Assembly (NCBI GenBank): GCA_947561715.1
Contig: OX387202.1
Span: forward strand, 9,375,001 to 9,439,000
DNA length: 64,000 bases
Source of the DNA: Ascidia mentula
Lineage: Eukaryota; Chordata; Ascidiacea; Phlebobranchia; Ascidiidae
Direction: 5' to 3'
A program made the translations under genes and the position numbers. This document shows positions 4,034-18,502 of the stretch, one piece after another (the first letter of the stretch is position 1; each line of letters opens with the position of its first letter). The notes under the pieces are model-generated. The model saw nothing but the letters and a program-made list of their open reading frames with translations. It did no database searches and was not told the DNA's origin.

Positions 4034-4225
4034 GTTCGGCTTTTTCACTTCACTGTAAACTTCAATCACTTTCTTCTCCTTATGAACTTGCGCGTAAACA
4101 TCGGGAGGTTAAGAAGTGCTTGCGTTGGCGGTAAGAGGTGCGGAACGTACGGTGATCCCTTCATCAGGCCAAAAATTATTGCGTGTAGGCGTAGCTGGAG
4201 CAATATAGCTGTAGGTATGTCCATT
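4034..4225 (-). other. Dead cytoplasmic-tail sequence downstream of the truncating stop
   Basis: This stretch still aligns with the tail exon sequence of the sister gene at 6763-7782, including the codons for the last V-Y-A-Q-V and V-Y-S-E-V motifs near 4050-4105. It lies behind an in-frame TGA at 4226-4228. A second in-frame stop (TCT TAA where the sister has TCT AAA) occurs before the Y-A-Q-V block. The final residues of the family (R-G-D-S-T-T) are also lost, because the sequence diverges after K-K-P. It is transcribed 3' UTR at best. Confidence 0.7.
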
Positions 4226-5035
4226 TCAACTGTCTGTGGGCGCCGCCGATACTTCCTGGATGTTTGCGTAGGTGGGGTCCTCCCGGTTTTGCATGTTGAT
4301 GTACACACTTTCCACATTTACCTGTTGTTGTTGGTGCTGTTGTTGCCTACGACGCAAGAACTCCACCAAAGCCAACACAGCAATGATGATCACGACCCCA
4401 ATAAAAACAATCCCGGCAGTCATTCCTACAACAGAAGATAAAGCTACTGAGCTGCTGTGATTTGGCAAACCGGATGAGCTGCCGACTTTTGGCCGAGATA
4501 TTTCGCTGCTAGTTGTTTTCAAAACTGTTATGCTGCTGGTTTTCGGGAGAGTGTTTTTGCTTGTAGTTTTTGATGAGGAAGTTGTGCTGGTTACTATACC
4601 CCATGTGTGACTTGATGACTGTTTGTGTGGCTTGTAACAAAGAAATGCTAGTCGTTCACTTGCATCTCCCAACAAAATACCTTTTGCATTTCGACCTATT
4701 TCACCGTAATCCTCCTTTATTCTTGTTGCTCTATCAAGTATAATTCTTTGCCCTTCTGCAACACATTGAAATTTTTCTCCAGTGATCCAAAAAGCATCAA
4801 CGTCACTTCCTTTGTCAGTTAATCCAATGCGGTAATAGTTTCTTCCACATTGATGCGCGGGTGGAAAAAAATCCACTGCATCTTTAAACTTCTCACTTGT
4901 GTTTAAAACTGCCAACCTTGCACCGTGAACATCCTGGCAATGTTGATCTGCATCACTCGCATTCAAAGGCTGTTGGTGGTAAAACAAAATGCCGTGGGTC
5001 GTATTTCTTGTTTGTAAGCATTTATCAACATCCAT
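4226..5035 (-). CDS. Lectin-like receptor with truncated tail
   Basis: A 269-residue frame from the ATG at 5035. Residues about 6-145 form a C-type-lectin-like domain: T-H-G-I-L-F-Y-H, A-D-Q-H-C-x5-G-A-R-L-A, C-G-R-N-Y-Y-R-I-G-L and a closing A-F-L-C-Y-K. No WND or EPN/QPD sugar-binding signature is seen. A Ser/Thr-rich stalk follows, then a membrane helix near residues 205-230 (G-M-T-A-G-I-V-F-I-G-V-V-I-I-I-A-V-L), basic R-R-R and a Gln run. The tail keeps V-Y-I-N-M and T-Y-A-N-I but ends at A-P-T-D-S, because one codon reads TGA where the sister gene has GGA. The usual Y-x-x-V motifs further on are lost. No signal peptide lies in this exon. The frame is open upstream through an acceptor-like TTTGCATAG, so an upstream exon is likely. 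It may be a natural short-tail receptor or an early pseudogene. Confidence 0.7.
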   Translation of the reverse strand: MDVDKCLQTRNTTHGILFYHQQPLNASDADQHCQDVHGARLAVLNTSEKFKDAVDFFPPAHQCGRNYYRIGLTDKGSDVDAFWITGEKFQCVAEGQRIILDRATRIKEDYGEIGRNAKGILLGDASERLAFLCYKPHKQSSSHTWGIVTSTTSSSKTTSKNTLPKTSSITVLKTTSSEISRPKVGSSSGLPNHSSSVALSSVVGMTAGIVFIGVVIIIAVLALVEFLRRRQQQHQQQQVNVESVYINMQNREDPTYANIQEVSAAPTDS

Positions 5036-5694
5036 TCTACTGTTTCGATAAACAATAATAACAGAAACTATGCAAAAAACACTTCTTTGTTCAATTCATG
5101 TAAAAATGCAATACTCAATATTTTCTTGACTATTGTTTTTTCAGATCTCAAACAACTTTCTGCAAAACCTACCTTGATTTAAAACCCATTTTTCGAACAT
5201 TGAATCACACGGGAATGCAAAGTTTGGAATTACGTCAACGCCGATATCCCTTTCATTTAAACCCAACAGAAAGCAAACCGACCCTTCCAAGTAAGTTAAA
5301 CAACTGTGGATCAAACAGCTTCCTTCTCTTTGAGCTGGATTTTCGCCACAGTTATCACAGCAATACCTGCACTAAAACAGAAACAATAGCAGGGTTTCAT
5401 AATAGTGACGTAAAGTTATTATGAGAAGTTTAACATTCTAAAGAATTAGCGAAAGAAGCTTAAATGAAAAATCGGGATTTTTCTAAGTCACTTGTGTCAT
5501 ACCACGAGGCATGCAAGAGTAAGTTAAATCAAAATAATATACTACGCATAAACAATACATTTGTCTAAAACAAAGTCTTTTAAAAGGAATCAGTTTATCT
5601 GTAGTGGTAAGACATGAGTGACCTTTAGTAACCGCAACAGACTGTTTCGTTACGAGGCGGTTTAAGTCTCTTCTTTAAGTACGATCATTCTTCA

Positions 5695-6762: not shown

Positions 6763-7782
6763 TTAAGTTGTTGAATCGCCTCGTTTCGGCTTTTTCACTT
6801 CACTGTAAACTTCAATCACTTTCTTCTCCTTATGAACTTGCGCGTAAACATCGGGATCTTTAGAAGTGCTTGTGTGAGCGGCAAGAGGTGCTGCAGAAAG
6901 TACGTTGATCTCCTCATCAGGCCAGAAATTATTGCTTGTAGACCCCGCTGGAGCAGCAAAGCTGTAAGTAGGTTCGTTTCCACTGTCTGTGGGCGCGGCC
7001 GATTCCTCCTGGATGGTTGCGTAAGTATCGTCACCCCGGATTTGCATGTTGTTGAATGCACTTTCTACATTTGCCTGTTTGTGCTGTTGTTGCCTTCGAC
7101 ACAAGAATGCCACCAAAGCCAACAAAGCAATAATGATCACGACCCCAATAACTACAATCCCAGCAGTCATTCCTACAGCAGAAGATGAAGCTACTGTGCT
7201 GCTGTGATTTGGCAAACCGGTTGTGCTGCCGACTTTTGGCCGAGATATTTCGCTGCTAGTTGTTTTTAAAACTGTTATGCTGCTGGTTTTCGGGTGAGTG
7301 TTTTTGCTTGTAGTTTTTGATGAGGAAGTTGTGCTGGTTACTATACCCCATGTGTGACTTGATGACTGTTTGTGTGGCTTGTAACAAAGAAATGCTAGTC
7401 GTTCACTTGCATCTCCCAACAAAATACCTTTGACATTTCGACCTATTTCGCCGTAATCCTCCTTTCCGCTTGTTGCTCTATTAAGTTTAATATTTGGCCC
7501 TTCTGCAACACGTTTAAAATTTTCTCCACTGATCCAAAAAGCATCAACGTCACTTCCTTTGTCAGTTAATCCAATGCGGTAATAATTTCTTCCACATGGT
7601 TTCATGGAAGGAATTAAATCCACTGCATCTTTAAACTTCTCACTTGTGTTTAAAATTGCTAACCTCGCACCGTGAACATCCTGGCAATGTTGATCTGCAT
7701 CACTCGCATTCAGTTGCTCGGTGTGGTAAAACAAAATTCCGTGGGTCGTATTTCTTGTTTGTAAGCATTTATCAACATCCAT
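6763..7782 (-). CDS. Full-length lectin-like receptor with Y-x-x-V/I tail
   Basis: 339 residues from the ATG at 7782. An in-frame ATG at 7803 is an alternative, and the frame stays open through an acceptor-like TGTGCATAG, so an upstream signal-peptide exon is likely. The lectin-like domain spans about residues 6-145 with the same landmarks as its paralogues (A-D-Q-H-C, G-A-R-L-A, Y-R-I-G-L, F-L-C-Y-K) and no sugar-binding triplet. A long Ser/Thr stalk leads to a membrane helix (about 205-230) ending in C-R-R. The tail holds T-Y-A-T-I, T-Y-S-F-A, V-Y-A-Q-V and V-Y-S-E-V, then K-K-P-K-R-G-D-S-T-T. Such spaced Y-x-x-V/I motifs resemble immunoreceptor inhibitory or switch motifs that bind SH2 phosphatases; the role here is inference. 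The Y-I-N-M of the sister copy is changed to F-N-N-M. Confidence 0.85.
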   Translation of the reverse strand: MDVDKCLQTRNTTHGILFYHTEQLNASDADQHCQDVHGARLAILNTSEKFKDAVDLIPSMKPCGRNYYRIGLTDKGSDVDAFWISGENFKRVAEGPNIKLNRATSGKEDYGEIGRNVKGILLGDASERLAFLCYKPHKQSSSHTWGIVTSTTSSSKTTSKNTHPKTSSITVLKTTSSEISRPKVGSTTGLPNHSSTVASSSAVGMTAGIVVIGVVIIIALLALVAFLCRRQQQHKQANVESAFNNMQIRGDDTYATIQEESAAPTDSGNEPTYSFAAPAGSTSNNFWPDEEINVLSAAPLAAHTSTSKDPDVYAQVHKEKKVIEVYSEVKKPKRGDSTT

Positions 7783-8350
7783 TCTACTGTTTCGATGAAC
7801 CATAATTACAGAAACTATGCACAAAAACGTTTATTTATTTAATTCATGTAAAAATGCAATACTCAATATTTTTTTGACTATAGTTTTTTCAGATCTCAAA
7901 CCACTTTCTGCAAAACTTCCCTTGATTTGAAACCTTTTTTCAAACATTGAATCACACGGGAATGCAAAGTTTGGAATTACGTCAACGCCGATTTCCCTTT
8001 CATTTAAACCCAACAGAAAGCAAACAACTGTGGATCAAACAGCTTCCTTATCTTTGAGCTGGATTTTCGCCACAGTAATCCCAATACCTGCATGCACTGA
8101 AACAGAAACAATAGCAGGGTTTCATAATAATGACGTAAAGTTATTGTGAGAAGCTCAACATTCTAAAGAATTAGCGAAAGTGACTTAAAATGAAAAATCG
8201 GGGTTATTCTAGGTCACTTGTGTCATACCACGAGGCTTGCAAGAGTAAGTTAAATCAAAATAATATACTACGCATAAACAATACATTTGTCTAAAACAAA
8301 GTCTTTTGAAAGGAGTCGGTTTATCTGTAGTGGTAAGACATGAGTGACCT

Positions 8351-8790
8351 TTAGTAACCGCGACAGACTGTTTCGTTACGAGGCAGTTCGAGTCTCTTCT
8401 TTAAGAAGGATAATTCTTCAAGCAGGAGATTATTGCTTGTAGACCCAGCTGCAGCAGCAAATCTGTAAGTAGGTTCATTTCCACTGTCTGTGGGCGCCGA
8501 TTCTTCCTGGTTGGTTGCGTAAGTATTGTCACCATGGTTTCGCATGCTGATGAATACACTTTCTATAATTGGCTGTTGTTTATGCTGCCGACTGTTTCCG
8601 CATAAAAACGCCACCAACGTCAACGCCAGCAATGATTATCACGATTTCAACAACAACAATATCAGACAATGTTGATATGAATTACTCGCATCCACTTGTC
8701 TTCGGTGATAAAACAAAACACTATGGGTCGAACTGCTCGGTTCAATGCAACTATCAAGATTCATATTCCACTGTCTCAAGGCACCAACTA
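8351..8790 (-). pseudogene. Broken lectin-like receptor: domain start fused to membrane segment and tail
   Basis: On the minus strand, about 8790-8680 gives decayed sequence for V-L-F-Y-H, A-S-N and Q-H-C of the lectin-like domain. It then passes directly into the membrane segment (L-A-L-T-L-V-A-F-L-C near 8610) and a tail with E-S-V-F-I-S-M, T-Y-A-T-N-Q and P-T-D-S-G-N-E-P-T-Y-R-F. Most of the lectin-like domain and the stalk are absent, and stops interrupt the frame between the two pieces. The tail then departs from the family and ends at 8351. It is the unit-B counterpart of the relic at 5695-5948. Confidence 0.65.
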
Positions 8791-10349: not shown

Positions 10350-11312
10350 TTAAGTTGTTGAATCGCCTCGTTTCGGCTTTTTCACTTCACTGTAAACTTC
10401 AATTACTTTCTTCTCCTTATGAACTTGCGCGTAAACATCGGGAGCTTTAGACGAGTTTTCTTCAGTACCTGGAGGTACCGAGGAGTAATATACATTAGTA
10501 GTTGCGTCAAGCCCACTACTGCCGCCTGTACCGACCGCAAGTTGCGGCGGATTAACAGCACTGTAAGTTGCGTCATTTCCTGTGTCACAAGCAGTTACTG
10601 CTGAACTTTCAGCAATGGTTGCATACGTGTTTGTGTCATCCACGTTTCGCACATCGTTACTTACTGTTGTTACCTGTTTGGCTTGGCGGCGATTTCGCTT
10701 CAATAAATACACAACCAAGGCAATCAACGCAATTGCCAGCAATATTGCCAAGATTGTTAATCCAGCCAACATTCCTGTGTTAGTGGCGACCCCTGCTGAA
10801 ACACCAGAGGCAGTCGTAGACGAGCCGATAGGTTTCGATGATTTTGTTGCAATTTGTGGAATTTGATTTCTACCATCGATGTTTGGAGACTGTTTGTGTG
10901 GCTTGTAACAAAGAAATGAACGTCGTTCACTTGCAGCCCCAAACCAAATATCTTGTTTATTTCGAGCTATTTCGCCGTAATCCTCCTTTCCGCTTGTTGC
11001 TCCATCAAGTATAATTCTTTGCCCTTCTGCAACACGTTGAAAATTTTCTCCAGTAATCCAAAAAGCATCAACGTTACTTCCTTTGTCAGTTAATCCAATG
11101 CGGTAATAATTTCTTCCACATGGTTCCACGGATGGAAAAAAATCCACTGCATCTTTAAACTTCTCACTGGTGTTTAAAACTGCCAACCTTGCACCGTGAA
11201 CATCCTGGCAATGTTGATCTGCATTACTCGCATTCAACATATGTCGGTGATAAAACAAAATTCCGTGGGTCCTGTTCCTTGTTTGCATGCAGTATTCCAA
11301 ACCAACAACCAT
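10350..11312 (-). CDS. Full-length lectin-like receptor, mosaic of two paralogue types
   Basis: 320 residues from the ATG at 11312; the frame is open upstream through GTGCAG, again suggesting an earlier exon. The lectin-like domain (about residues 8-145) is nearly that of the minus-strand copies at 4226-5035 and 6763-7782. The stalk is short. The membrane segment (T-G-M-L-A-G-L-T-I-L-A-I-L-L-A-I-A-L) and the middle of the tail (D-A-T-T-N-V-Y-Y-S-S-V-P-P-G) instead follow the plus-strand gene at 17522-18502. The last residues (E-V-K-K-P-K-R-G-D-S-T-T) are again of the minus-strand type. The tail has T-Y-A-T-I, T-Y-S-A-V, Y-Y-S-S-V, V-Y-A-Q-V and V-Y-S-E-V, the most motifs of the set. Gene conversion or unequal exchange is the likely reason. 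Confidence 0.85.
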   Translation of the reverse strand: MVVGLEYCMQTRNRTHGILFYHRHMLNASNADQHCQDVHGARLAVLNTSEKFKDAVDFFPSVEPCGRNYYRIGLTDKGSNVDAFWITGENFQRVAEGQRIILDGATSGKEDYGEIARNKQDIWFGAASERRSFLCYKPHKQSPNIDGRNQIPQIATKSSKPIGSSTTASGVSAGVATNTGMLAGLTILAILLAIALIALVVYLLKRNRRQAKQVTTVSNDVRNVDDTNTYATIAESSAVTACDTGNDATYSAVNPPQLAVGTGGSSGLDATTNVYYSSVPPGTEENSSKAPDVYAQVHKEKKVIEVYSEVKKPKRGDSTT

Positions 11313-11399
11313 TTTATTGTTTGGTATAATCACTCTTTGATCCAAAATATTTTCATCCACTAGTAACCCCTGCACATAAGACTGCCAAAACCAAATCAC

Positions 11400-13023: not shown

Positions 13024-13029
13024 TTTATT
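13024..13029 (-). terminator. Poly(A) signal of the Arg/Trp-rich peptide gene
   Basis: AATAAA on the minus strand, 27 bases beyond the stop codon at 13056-13058. The spacing suits a very short 3' UTR. Confidence 0.6.
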
Positions 13030-13055
13030 TTGCCGATGAAAGAAATGCCCACATT

Positions 13056-13620
13056 TTACTCGTCTTCATCTAAAAAGTCATCTTCATCGTCCATTGCTTC
13101 AACTGCGTCTATTCCAAAAGTAAAAAAATGTGTTGAATGTGAAAACAACCATAGCCAAAAGGGTCGAAAACTTTTGGTATCTCGAAGGAAAGTATTATAA
13201 ACTGTAAACATGCAAGTCAAGCATTTGCTATCGGTTAGTTGCTGCCGTAAAATTAAGACGTTTGTGTAAAGGTTGTTTGACAACAAGCAGCATGTGACAG
13301 TTTAGACTCTAATCAACTGGTTAACCCAAAAGACTGAAGCATACACACAAAACTACAGAAACATGGCACTAAATATATTTAAATATAGAATATATGAAAG
13401 TTGAATTAAAGGCTGTAAAGTTTTCTTGATGATTTGTCTGCTTACCTTCATCTCCCTTTCGGTATTTTCGTCTCCATATTCTTCTCCACACCCTTCTATT
13501 CCACCACCTTCTGCGAATCCAGCAACGTCTACTGCGACAGTAGTAGCGTAAGGACTCGGCTGAGTCTGAAGCAAGAAGGACGAGTCCCAGAAGAAGAACG
13601 ATCAACAACAGTTTGTTCAT
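13056..13620 (-). CDS. Arg/Trp-rich antimicrobial peptide precursor
   Basis: Two coding exons, 13620-13446 (58 codons plus one base) and 13108-13056, give 75 residues. A strong signal peptide (M-N-K-L-L-L-I-V-L-L-L-G-L-V-L-L-A-S) is followed by a core of about 32 residues with 14 Arg, 2 Lys and 5 Trp, including W-I-R-R-R-W-W and one possible disulfide pair (C-R-S-R-R-C). The second exon supplies an acidic end (M-D-D-E-D-D-F-L-D-E-D-E). Signal, cationic core and anionic tail is the layout known from tunicate haemocyte antimicrobial peptides such as clavanins and Ci-MAM/Ci-PAP; the core is not one I recognise. The intron is phase 1 after D-E, donor AAG|GTAAGC, acceptor GGAATAG. The ATG sits directly behind a TTTTTTGCAG acceptor. 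A noncoding first exon ending at 13676 (ATAAG|GTAAGC) and a TATA box complete the model. Confidence 0.8.
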
Positions 13621-13739
13621 CTGCAAAAAACGACCATGTAGAAAAACTTTACATCACAATAAGTAAGTTGCTTACCTTATCCTTTGCGTTGCGAGTTCCA
13701 CAATGCAAAATGATGATTTTCAGACTTTAAGGTTTCTGG

Positions 13740-13747
13740 TTATATAG
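13740..13747 (-). promoter_or_regulatory. TATA box of the Arg/Trp-rich peptide gene
   Basis: CTATATAA on the minus strand. A start about 30 bases on, near 13713, would give a 5' leader exon ending at the good donor at 13676/13675. A 55-base intron then leads to the ATG exon at 13620. Confidence 0.5.
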
Positions 13748-13749
13748 AG

Positions 13750-16700
13750 TTGAAAAACATATGTTGCCGGTGATCGTGTTTCTCTTGATAACCGTTGTTA
13801 GACGAGTCTTCCTTCCCAAATAAAAACTCGTAGTCACTCCACGCGCATCCTTCATTTAGCGCGGATAATTTTGCGAAAGTTATTTTTGCAGCTGCATTTG
13901 CTGCATCAGGCAATATTAAATAATTCTTTGCACAAGATATGTTAAATTAGTTTAGGGGTTTATTGGTTTAATGTTTCAAAATGTTTTGCAGTATATACAG
14001 AAATAAAGAACAGAAATACGCCTACAAATCAATACAATTGTAATTCCTCTCCACAAACAAATTAGCTGATAATAGAGAATTTGAGCAGGCAGAATTAAAA
14101 GTACATTTACGAAAGGTTGTGTAAAGCTGATTTTATCGTAATGCAAATTAAAATACTTTCCAAAAATAACTCCACTTTTTGCTCTGAGGCATCGGAATTC
14201 ACGTTTTGGCGATTATCCTGTTTACGATGTATCAGGCAACATATGACACAGCGTCGACCAATCAGGAAGTTAGGTGGAAACACGTGACAAGTTCCTGAGA
14301 TTTTCAGGCGCAAGAAATCCCAACACAAATCTCATTAGGGACCGTATGGAAACTGTTGGTGGTTGAGACGATTAACAAACAAGCTTAATCATATTTGTGT
14401 TATACGTATATTGTCAGAAGGCTCTTGTAAAAAACCAAAGTTTTTTTTGTATGTGAGATATTTTGTGATGTGATGAATATACTTCAAACAAATAACGTAC
14501 AATTGTGGATAGGAAACCAAAAACTGACATAAAATTTTGTTGAAGTGCTGGATATACGTTTTGCATGCACATGTACACGATGACATGTATTTGCCGTCAA
14601 TTTCTGACAATTAAAACAATTAAAAACTATGCTTGTGCCGATTTTTTTTTTAAAAAAAAACGTCCATATGATATTCTTTCTATTTATTTGAGGAAAACTG
14701 CACATATTCGTCTCGATATCAAATAATGTAGATGTTCGTATTTCAGAATTGTGATTTCATGAACATCTTTCTGATCATTGTCTGTTTGAAATCATCCCGA
14801 AATGAAAAATAGTTAAAATTACACAGTTAAGGTTTTTTAGTTCCATGCTTAATTCATCACATGTTACCGGTTCGTCGACTTTAACTCTGGTATTCATCAA
14901 TATCTAACATTTCTTCAAGAATCACTATAGCGTAAAAATTTATCGTGAGTAAGTGTGTGATCACGTGGGTGAACAATTTGTAAACCAAATCCACTCAGCA
15001 CATACAGTAGGTGGTTGTGCAAGTCCCAAACAATCTAGATTTTGGGGGTTTAATAATTTATTTTATGTTTTTTGAAACACTTTGTATAGAACGTGTACGA
15101 TTTTTTGCAGTGTACGGTTGATCAAAGTCGCAATACAAAACATATTTTATCAAGGTGGTAGTAGTTTAATAACGTAGCCATCGCGGAATTTTGTTGGGGG
15201 TTATGAATTTTAAGCGATTGAAAGTATTAAAATTAAGGTTTCCTTGTATTGTTGATTGGTCTCCACCAAACCAATTAGCTCTCCAAATGGACAAGTGATT
15301 TGGCTAACACCGCGGCATCTGAGCATCCGCATAATCGGATGACAGAAAAACAATTCCAAGGAAAATTGAAATCATAATCAGTTTAGCCAAACCTTAAACT
15401 CAAAAAATGTTTTAGTCCTGAATACAAACAACAAAAACGTTGTGCACATGACCATAAAACACGCACATATTTTTAACTGAAATTGTTGACAAAGCGTCCA
15501 GCTAAAATCGAGTTCTTTACGCCGAAAAATGTTATATTCCTTCCATGGCAACTTACACTGTAGCGTCCTTTTAATTTAACTTGTATACAGTCCTTCATCC
15601 TGTAATTCGAGAATTTCTTCCTTCCAACACTGTGTCTCAGCTTTTTACACGACAGCACCAGCCGGGCGTACGTGACGTTTTCGCGTCATAAAATGAACAC
15701 GTTTAAATCTTAGCCATAAAGTTGGCAATTGTACACGTCATTTGAACTTACGAACACTGTTTTTAGGTGTCAGCATTCCAACTGAACTGCTTGTAGTTAG
15801 TAAATAGCGTTATAAAATTTTTCTTCAAAATTGGCGCCATTATTCGACGACATTTTCACCACGTTGTTATATGTATGTGACGAAGTAATATCAGTAAGTT
15901 AATAACAAACTCTCGTGTCAGCCAGGAAAAGAAGTGCGGGGAAAAAATTATTTTCTTCATTTGGGAGCCAATATATATTCGCAACTTTTTCCGAAACCTT
16001 AACAAAGACGCAAGTTGGATTAGAACCGATGGTTGCAACTGATAATGTTGGACTTGGTTTTAGTTCCAGTCGATAGTTTTAATAATATTATATTAATAAT
16101 CTTATCAACGAGAATATAAAATATAAGTAATCGTGCACACATGGGCAAGATTTTGTGAAGCGCGGATTCTAAACAATTTTCTCGTTTCTCGCAAACCCCG
16201 CATGAAAACTTGACAACAACTTGTTAAAGTGAATATATCACGTGTTTCCCTACCGTTTCCTGATTGGACTCACTCCAATTTGCTTGGAGCTCAAAAACAG
16301 GAAAATCGCATCAAAATTACATCCGATGTTTTACATAAACGTGAATTGATCATGAACATCAAGTTTTCTCGATATCCATTTGCGGTTTTCTCGGCCCCAA
16401 TGACATTTTGCCTTTTGTACAGTTTATTTATTTATGTGGTACTCATTATTCCCCAAACTTAAAAAATACACAAAAACCTAATCACGGCAACAGGGAATAA
16501 GTCAAATAGTATCCAACATGTTTGTGTGGAAATATAGACTAATTGACAATACAGTGTATACTGGAAGTAGTGGGAATCAGTTTTTTGGAATTTAATGACC
16601 CAAGCGAACCGGCTGTTAACAACCGTGTGTGTAGGCGTATGTTTCACTTTAAGCAAATGTATTTCCTCGGTTTCCCTGACATGCTGCTGATGAGAGAACA

Positions 16701-17480
16701 GGATGAAAAAATATTTAAATCCCACCACTGTACTTGTATTACGTTCCTTCGCAACTGCTAAATGGGACAGCACCTTGTGTTTCTGCCAGTCGAATGTTTG
16801 GTGACGTTATTGCACAAACTATCACATGTTATAGCAAGCGGTGGGCGTGATGTAACTTGGCAACAATTTGCCGCTCAGACCAGAGTAGGTTGAAACTATA
16901 TGGGAACTTAAGTTTTTATACCACGCGCTCCGATTGGTTGAGGAAGAAGTGGCTTTAACATAGCTGCGATGTCACTTGTTACCCTGAATGCAAACCATTT
17001 TTGCACAAAAAATGTTTTTCTTGTCGTATCTATGAATCCAGTATTATGGGCTTACAAGGAATACATCCACATTGTTGGAGCTGTTGAAATCCACAAAGCT
17101 ATTTTTACGCGGCAATACCAGTAACATTTTATTTCGCAGAGCAGAGCTTTTTGTTTGCAAAAAAACGGCATCAAAATAAACAAAAGTGTCCCCTGCATCT
17201 TGCGAGCAGTAAACAAAAACATCCAACGCGCGGGACGCATGTTCCGTTTGTTACCAAGGCAAAATTTCCACATTGCAAAAGTAAAACGATCAGTAACCTA
17301 ATGACGAACATCCCGTTGAATAGTTCGAGATTGCTGTGAATGTTTTACTTCCTTCATATGACGTCATCCATACATTGTGATTGCAACGTTTCGTTTTCAG
17401 GCATTGGTTTGTTTGAGGTGTCGAGGCTAATTTGATTTCTTGAAACTCTTCAAGTGATTTTGTTTGGTGTTGAGTGGCAT
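13750..17480. other. No gene seen in 3.7 kb
   Basis: Frames on both strands are short and look random. Notable local sequence includes a T9/A9 palindrome near 14641-14660 and an AT-rich palindromic stretch near 16080-16100. A CCAAT-type box (GATTGG) lies near 16932, followed by GC-richer sequence. No tRNA, repeat family or protein domain is evident. The right part should include regulatory sequence of the receptor at 17522-18502. Confidence 0.5.
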
Positions 17481-17482
17481 TC

Positions 17483-17490
17483 TATAAAAA
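17483..17490 (+). promoter_or_regulatory. Candidate TATA box of the plus-strand lectin-like receptor
   Basis: TATAAAAA lies 39 bases before the ATG at 17522, so a transcript could start near 17512. A splice-acceptor-like GTGCACAG lies between them at the place where the paralogues also have acceptor-like sites. This could therefore equally be intron sequence before the receptor exon. Confidence 0.35.
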
Positions 17491-17521
17491 GCAAATTTTG
17501 TGCACAGGGCAGGATAATAAA

Positions 17522-18502
17522 ATGACTTGCCAAATAAATAAAGCAAATGATGAAATTTGTTTGGAAACAAAGTGCACAGAACACGGTGTTCTGTTTTATC
17601 ACGGAACAAGATTAAATGCAAGAGACGCTGATCAACAATGCCAGGATATTCACGGTACAAGGTTGGCAGTCTTAGACACAAAACAGAAGTTTCTGGACGC
17701 AGTGGAATATATTCCTAAATCTAAACCATGTAAACGAACCTATTATCGCATTGGTTTGGTTGAAGACAAAAGTGGGGAAGTATCTTGGCTCAATAATAAA
17801 AAATTTGAGAAAATTGATCAAAAACAAAAGATTTTGATGACAAGTGCCACGTCCAAAACCGTAGACTATGGTAAAATTAAAGCTGGGATAGAAGATATTA
17901 CTTTGGGAAGCCCAGAAGAGAATGTTGCGTATGTATGCTACAAGTCCAACACAACTAGGCAGCAGTTAAGTACACCATCGCCAAACCCGACAAGTTCGAG
18001 AAATTTTGCGTCGGCAAACATCACAAATATCATATCTTTAAAATCAACCACACTTGTGACCAGCATTGGGAAAATTCAATCAACCGCAACAGCTATGTCA
18101 GGCACAACGACAAGCACAGGAATGTTGGTAGGACTAGTAATACTGGCCACAATCTTAGTCCTTTTTATACTGGCTTTGGTGGTCTACTTATTGAGGAAAA
18201 GACTTGGACTTGCCGAACAGTCAGCTGCTCGTAACAATGACAGAATTTATGCAACCATCGAGGAAGCATCAGCACTGGGAGTCGTTGGGAGTGACGCAAC
18301 ACACAACGTCATTTCCCCTCTTCCACTGGCTACCAGGAATAATGAGGGGTTTGACGCAACTACTACTGTCTATTACTCCTCTGTACCTCCAGGCCCCGAA
18401 GGGAACTCGTCTAAAGCACCCGATGTTTACGCGCAAGTTCATAAGGAGAAGAAAGTGACTGAAGTTTACAGTGAAGTGAAAAAAAAAACTGAGAGAAACT
18501 GA
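17522..18502 (+). CDS. Full-length lectin-like receptor with Y-x-x-V/I tail (plus-strand member)
   Basis: 326 residues from the first true ATG at 17522; the frame is open upstream through GTGCACAG. The lectin-like domain (about residues 10-145) has H-G-V-L-F-Y-H, A-D-Q-Q-C, G-T-R-L-A-V-L, C-K-R-T-Y-Y-R-I-G-L, a Trp in V-S-W-L-N-N and a closing V-A-Y-V-C-Y-K. No WND or EPN/QPD motif is seen. A Ser/Thr-rich stalk leads to a membrane helix (about 203-228, G-M-L-V-G-L-V-I-L-A-T-I-L-V-L-F-I-L) and R-K-R. The tail has I-Y-A-T-I, V-Y-Y-S-S-V, V-Y-A-Q-V and V-Y-S-E-V. The whole product lies in one exon. It is the most diverged of the full-length copies in the lectin domain, while its 3' end is almost shared with the others. 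A poly(A) signal follows. Confidence 0.85.
   Translation: MTCQINKANDEICLETKCTEHGVLFYHGTRLNARDADQQCQDIHGTRLAVLDTKQKFLDAVEYIPKSKPCKRTYYRIGLVEDKSGEVSWLNNKKFEKIDQKQKILMTSATSKTVDYGKIKAGIEDITLGSPEENVAYVCYKSNTTRQQLSTPSPNPTSSRNFASANITNIISLKSTTLVTSIGKIQSTATAMSGTTTSTGMLVGLVILATILVLFILALVVYLLRKRLGLAEQSAARNNDRIYATIEEASALGVVGSDATHNVISPLPLATRNNEGFDATTTVYYSSVPPGPEGNSSKAPDVYAQVHKEKKVTEVYSEVKKKTERN

Follow-up and report, generated by a model that had tools for sequence, protein, structure and literature searches.

A candidate host-defence peptide gene in Ascidia mentula from a large family of Arg/Trp/Tyr-rich precursors

The best-described counterparts of the gene analysed here come from the ascidian Ciona and from mussels. 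PMC7387483 describes 22 LCAMP candidates of Ciona; 17 have an anionic part, and in most a signal comes first, then a cationic and then an anionic part. Five of the candidates were active there as synthetic peptides, including KH.C1.640, KH.C7.94 and KH.S921.1, whose cores are Arg/Trp or RRR-spaced. KH.C1.640 and KH.S921.1 have a MIC below 3.125 uM on E. coli (PMC7387483). Four other Ciona cationic segments, all with strongly negative aggregation scores, were inactive or weakly active against E. coli (PMC7387483), so cationic charge alone is no guarantee of activity. In mussels, the accounts of PMC5577615 and PMC12294457 describe myticalin genes in which exon 1 is untranslated and an intron ends right before the ATG. 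Exon 2 encodes the signal, the core and the first acidic residues, the second intron is in phase 1, and exon 3 supplies the rest of the acidic tail. These genes form a multigene family with pseudogenes (PMC5577615, PMC12294457).

We examined a gene with a similar plan in the ascidian Ascidia mentula. The animal is not a Ciona, and the Ciona EST and haemocyte RNA data first suggested as a check would be no test of this gene. The window, meaning the whole 64-kb stretch of DNA that was analysed, is C70:9,375,001-9,439,000 of a genome of 195.84 Mb in 79 contigs. On its minus strand lies a compact three-exon gene with an intact reading frame and a 75-aa spliced product. Its features are as follows, in window positions.

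13740..13746, minus strand: TATA box TATATAA (one copy of a seven-copy alignment has TAGATAA)
13676..13715, minus strand: untranslated leader exon, its 3' end set by the donor GATAAG/GTAAGC
13621..13675, minus strand: intron 1, GTAAGC...TTTTGCAG, ending directly before the ATG at 13620
13446..13620, minus strand: exon 2, 175 nt, with the ATG at 13620; signal, core and start of the tail
13552..13620, minus strand: putative signal peptide, 23 codons, MNKLLLIVLLLGLVLLASDSAES, cleavage site placed by eye
13456..13551, minus strand: cationic Arg/Trp-rich core, 32 codons, LRYYCRSRRCWIRRRWWNRRVWRRIWRRKYRK, with a possible Cys28-Cys33 loop
13446..13455, minus strand: start of the acidic tail, Gly-Asp-Glu (the Asp nearly invariant in the family alignment), and phase-1 donor
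13109..13445, minus strand: intron 2, phase 1, GTAAGC...GAATAG
13056..13108, minus strand: exon 3, coding part, remaining acidic tail and stop
13024..13029, minus strand: poly(A) signal AATAAA
12955..14365, unstranded, in pieces: stretch resembling the tandem copies described below (blastn), main block about 13040-14365

The 5' start of the leader exon is the presumed transcription start, about 25-30 nt behind the TATA box. Because exon 2 runs 175 nt from the ATG, intron 2 is in phase 1. The original prediction had listed a TATA box, a leader exon, two coding exons and a poly(A) signal; all were located, the poly(A) signal just beyond the predicted span of 13056..13747.

The 75-aa precursor reads MNKLLLIVLLLGLVLLASDSAES, LRYYCRSRRCWIRRRWWNRRVWRRIWRRKYRK and GDEDAVEAMDDEDDFLDEDE, in that order. 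The 32-aa core (R14 K2 W5 Y3 C2) has a net charge of +16, and the counts given for it beforehand (about 32 residues with 14 Arg, 2 Lys and 5 Trp after the signal) are right. A single possible disulfide had also been proposed, and the core does hold two cysteines, Cys28 and Cys33. Likewise, the strongly acidic tail is present: GDEDAVEAMDDEDDFLDEDE has 20 residues, 13 acidic and none basic, for a net charge of -13. The CR[SG]RRC block of the core recurs in the two closest relatives of the gene, L019 and L020. Arg-Lys stands directly N-terminal of Gly-Asp-Glu; the same place is not dibasic in several relatives. Judged by eye, most signals of the family show Val or another small residue at -3, and at -1 the residue is small.

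An amphipathic helix was considered as the mechanism and is disfavoured, since the helical moment of the core (0.363, the 18-residue maximum) is no higher than in shuffled sequences: 73% of 2,000 shuffles equal or exceed it, and at 170 degrees 92% of shuffles reach the core value. The window precursor matched 0 Pfam families at E<=1, and the other proteins among the seven submitted gave only matches under the curated cut-off. In the PDB the precursor had nine matches to E 10, the best at E 0.34, which we judged to be compositional.

The gene is no single oddity. Among the 22 matches of a DNA search of the genome is a tandem cluster that lies about 4.4 Mb from the window gene, at C70:4.92-4.97 Mb, and is 69-81% identical to the query. 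Individual blastn blocks between window and cluster exceed 1,100 nt and are 74-77% identical. Six intact tandem copies (L021-L026) yield complete gene models with the exons of the window gene and can be aligned with it over the entire gene; two of them, L021 and L022, encode an identical protein. The leader donor GATAAG/GTAAG is kept in all seven aligned copies, and the other six have no poly(A) signal at this place. Three degenerate copies with stops, at C70 4.95-4.97 Mb, belong to the cluster as well; the stop lies at codon 3 in L019, in the core in L020 and in the signal in L038.

Protein searches of the genome with three different member queries returned 32, 33 and 34 rows. Merging leaves 67 places at a limit of E 10; of these, 48 pass E<=1e-3 and 40 pass E<=1e-5, so the window peptide is one of dozens of relatives; the counts are lower bounds, yet Arg-rich composition may flatter the E-values. 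Four of the 48 places at E<=1e-3 contain an internal stop. Because of the possible effect of composition, we inspected the loci themselves. From 60 loci (L018-L077), 45 were distinct in their first 150 bases and passed a filter that asked for an ATG where the match lies, a length of 25 codons or more and a hydrophobic start. The remaining 15 were duplicates of place or sequence or failed the filter, including L019 and L038 with their stops. Some of the 45 are weak matches, with E above 0.05. Their common MNK start is not independent evidence, as the queries themselves start with MNK. The titles and abstract openings of the papers listed, few of them from subscription journals, described no such family in Ascidia.

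The cores vary across the family. Arg/Trp cores are found in the window gene and in others on C70, C72 and C67, and cores with Arg/Tyr runs on C2, C52, C73 and at 12.39-12.40 Mb of C70. Other types include an Arg/His core with two Cys (C2) and a short Arg/Trp core (C69). Gly/Trp-rich, Cys-containing cores replace the Arg runs in L035, L039 and L040 (C70, about 4.28 Mb), where the signal is similar to that of the family and the candidate tail is mildly acidic. A weak match at C73:10,935,321-10,935,473 (L076, E 0.07) has a longer open frame in which repeats of LRRPLLRIGPLG come after a poly-Arg stretch.

Within the 64-kb window, the three member protein searches found no second family place. The peptide gene sits inside an array of receptor-like proteins, at 4037-5095, 6763-7830 and 10350-11399 on the minus strand and 17474-18502 on the plus strand, with fragments near 2439-2879 and 8666-8764. 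The other array members are 45-53% identical to the protein at 10350-11399. For that protein the match to C-type lectins is weak, at E 0.0033 and under the curated cut-off. At least three of the array proteins have paired Tyr motifs (VYAQV...VYSEV) at the end, preceded by a stretch that, by eye, is likely transmembrane.

We compared the layout of the 45 loci with controls. In 27 of 45 loci the ATG is immediately preceded by CAG, versus 1.2% of 2,685 control ATGs, which were the other ATGs of the same loci. An AG within 6 nt before the ATG occurs in 43 of 45, versus 23% of control ATGs. A strongly acidic tail exon, defined by a net acidity of at least 0.30, is reached in phase 0, 1 and 2 by 0, 23 and 1 of the 45 loci; the figures for 159 control frames are 3, 1 and 1. 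Under these strict settings 22 of the 45 loci lack a strongly acidic phase-1 exon, some having milder tails and some none that was found. The shared gene architecture is far above control, and the gene is real.

The nearest known systems are most likely the Ciona "novel LCAMP" precursors, for signal and layout, and the mussel myticalins, for gene structure. The window precursor resembles the former in its shortness, its signal-cationic-anionic order and its 23-aa signal starting MNK. Scored against the consensus of the Ciona novel family, the best of three consensuses tried, its signal is matched by none of 300 shuffles. Among the 45 loci, 35 signals lie at or below 1% of shuffles for this consensus, 18 for Ci-MAM and 14 for myticalin, and the median shuffle fractions are 0.003, 0.030 and 0.027. 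These scores support kinship without proving it, because a shuffled sequence also loses the overall make-up of a signal peptide. One Ciona mature part searched against the genome gave a single match, at E 2.9 and with stops, which is not credible; a second gave no match, an empty answer that by the search's own warning is uninformative. Kinship with the Ciona precursors therefore rests on signal and layout only.

Several features of the LCAMP screen are found in the window precursor and others are not. It has a signal and a precursor length within 50-100 aa (75 aa in all, with a 23-aa hydrophobic start judged by eye and conservation) and an anionic C-terminal part (20 aa, net -13). Two cysteines, Cys28 and Cys33, follow the signal, where the screen allows none. 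The lower limit that the paper sets for the moment is 0.1; the core has 0.363, the value that 73% of the 2,000 shuffles reach. The gene is not filed as LCAMP, because the screen excludes cysteines and demands an amphipathic helix. A comparison with Ci-MAM and Ci-PAP had been proposed at the outset. The order of parts and the anionic C-terminal part are indeed those of both precursors, whereas the Ci-MAM consensus fits the window signal less well than that of the novel family (shuffle fraction 0.04 versus 0). Ci-MAM-A and Ci-PAP-A are moreover described as amphipathic helical peptides, without the Arg/Trp make-up of the window core (PMC7387483). The novelty claimed for the core stands in part: Arg/Trp-rich cores are known, those of KH.C1.640, KH.C7.94 and KH.S921.1 being reported as active in vitro (PMC7387483).

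With the myticalins the window gene shares the whole plan, that is three exons, an ATG that opens exon 2, a phase-1 intron and an acidic exon 3. Other properties differ. Myticalins and modiocalins are mussel peptides described as lineage-specific, of Pro/Arg/Tyr-rich and other classes (PMC5577615, PMC12294457), and myticalins, in the account of PMC5577615, are cut at a dibasic Lys-Arg site and have a longer tail (35-75 aa). On the myticalin signal consensus, MKGXXLLLLTIXXALCMIXECEG, the window signal scores a low 15, reached by 2 of 300 shuffles; L041, L044, L052 and L059 score 27-32. Styelins, clavanins and botryllin, from stolidobranch ascidians, are likewise blood-cell precursors with a signal and a propart, and the likeness to tunicate haemocyte peptides seen in the original prediction holds for the order of parts. 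Against curated family models the window precursor has 0 Pfam matches at E<=1.

We propose, with a probability of roughly 73%, that this gene codes for the precursor of a host-defence (antimicrobial) peptide destined for secretion; blood cells or some other secretory cell type would be its probable source. This reading is favoured because a +16 core is paired with a -13 tail, because very different cationic cores stand behind a conserved signal across a large family, and because Ciona and mussel precursors with the same part order or gene structure are active. Against it stands the abundance of RR/RRR sites in the core, at which a convertase might cleave. The precursor would enter the secretory path and lose its signal after Ser23 (AES). 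The acidic tail may then neutralise the core until secretion (charge 13 versus 16) and would be released by a cut between Gly and Asp, the Gly being a possible donor of a C-terminal amide. This cut is the likeliest release, because the Asp is nearly invariant and, according to PMC7387483, cleavage of styelins and clavanins occurs before D and DD. Botryllin offers a model for the window precursor, since its proform is described in morula-cell granules, is thought to be converted outside, and furin is reported in the granules (PMC9966394). The freed 32-mer, with Cys28 and Cys33 possibly bridged, would bind anionic microbial surfaces via Arg, and its Trp residues would seat in the membrane interface. 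As the helical moment is not above that of shuffles, the product is probably an Arg/Trp-rich interfacial peptide rather than a classical amphipathic helix.

A different use of the peptides is suggested by blood-cell chemistry in the same animal family, Ascidiidae, to which Phallusia belongs along with Ascidia. Morula cells of Phallusia mammillata yield morulin Pm, a polypeptide that carries both TOPA and 6-bromotryptophan; for blood cells of Ascidia ceratodes, polypeptides with DOPA/TOPA have been reported (PMC3039461). The family could supply such hydroxylated and brominated polypeptides, with Tyr converted to DOPA/TOPA and Trp to 6-bromo-Trp, for cross-linking in clotting, tunic repair or metal handling, and with killing as a side effect. 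This would overlap with an antimicrobial role. Trp and Tyr abound in the family cores, and in one subfamily runs of Tyr alternate with runs of Arg, as in WWWARRRRYYARRRRYYYYRRRRYDQQEG. This subfamily comprises L056, L058, L062, L064, L065, L068, L072-L074 and L077, partly in tandem groups, on C2 (0.79, 3.62-3.63 and 15.56 Mb), C52 (22.83-22.84 Mb) and C73 (9.75 Mb), and is a possible source of Tyr-derived blood-cell peptides. The family is a candidate for the modified-polypeptide genes because of its composition and the kinship of the animals, nothing else. The tie to morulin Pm is a hypothesis drawn from composition, a weak kind of evidence; tests so far do not support antibacterial activity of morulin Pm, as reported in PMC3039461. 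We regard it as unlikely. Among the papers listed (titles and abstract openings, few subscription journals) we found no genes for morulin-type polypeptides. A bolder version, somewhat less likely again, holds that the genes of this family encode the TOPA/DOPA and 6-bromotryptophan blood-cell polypeptides of Ascidiidae and that the gene plan is ancient and shared with mussel myticalins; tunichromes would possibly be added as products of the Tyr-run subfamily.

We compared the window copy with its relatives region by region. Against the six intact tandem copies, dN is 0.02-0.04 and dS 0.11-0.25 in the signal, and intron 2 has diverged by 0.16-0.19. In the core dN is 0.45-0.51, with dS saturated in five of the six pairs and 1.58 in the sixth. 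The tail has dN of 0.15-0.21 and dS of 0.19-0.20, so that constraint on tail residues is not visible in these pairs. Against L019 and L020, respectively, the core has pN of 0.16 and 0.15, below pS of 0.41 and 0.33; intron 2 differs by 0.205 and 0.222, and the 400 bases before the ATG by 0.26 and 0.20. The signal has no synonymous and at most one nonsynonymous difference from either. Nonsynonymous change is greater in core than in signal (Fisher p 0.003 for L019, 0.027 for L020). The signal is highly conserved; the core evolves fast at all of its sites. Gene conversion could be an alternative cause of the constant signal. Positive selection on the core is unproven, with dS saturated against the tandem copies and pN below pS against L019 and L020.

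These comparisons bear on whether the gene is a dying duplicate of the tandem cluster that has lost expression. It stands isolated about 4.4 Mb away, its nearest relatives L019 and L020 carry stops, and the tail has dN near dS. However, frame, splice sites and TATA box are kept at about 16-22% divergence of intron 2. In the DNA alignment all coding gaps of the window copy are multiples of three, and most gaps in intron 2 are not. Compared with the six tandem copies, the exon-3 acceptor has shifted 6 nt downstream, and the frame is intact. An intact frame, coding gaps in threes and an acceptor shift that keeps the frame argue that the window copy is functional, and we consider a dying copy improbable. 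No NF-kB-like site was found in the 745 bp upstream of the window copy. A palindromic NF-kB-like site, GGGATTTCCC, lies 696 bp upstream of the ATG in L021-L024; it is present in these four of the eight other copies and absent from the window copy and the other four.

A secreted basic protein of another role, in tunic matrix, egg coat or as a neuropeptide precursor, might also resemble an antimicrobial precursor. The window precursor has no Pfam or PDB family match, and its antimicrobial role is read from sequence. Differing cationic cores under a conserved signal, a charge-balanced tail, many gene copies with some degenerate among them, and active counterparts in Ciona and mussels make such a role very improbable. 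Least probable of all is a polyprotein, in which convertases would cut the RR/RRR runs into very short aromatic peptides (WWN, VW and IW here, YYA and YYYY in sister genes) modified as in tunichromes: Arg runs do alternate with a few aromatic residues, most regularly in L056, L068 and L077, and several tunichromes consist of three Tyr-derived units (PMC3039461), but the window gene has irregular spacers, unlike those of the tandem copies, and Ciona KH.C7.94, with similar RRR spacing, is reported active as a whole synthetic peptide (PMC7387483).

A single odd peptide has led to an extensive set of chordate precursors rich in Arg, Trp and Tyr. Much of the family follows one gene plan, nearly identical to that of the mussel myticalins. 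Three questions become testable: do sea squirts depend on a diversified array of cationic peptides, which genes encode the modified peptides of Ascidiidae blood cells, and did animals evolve this gene plan once or twice?
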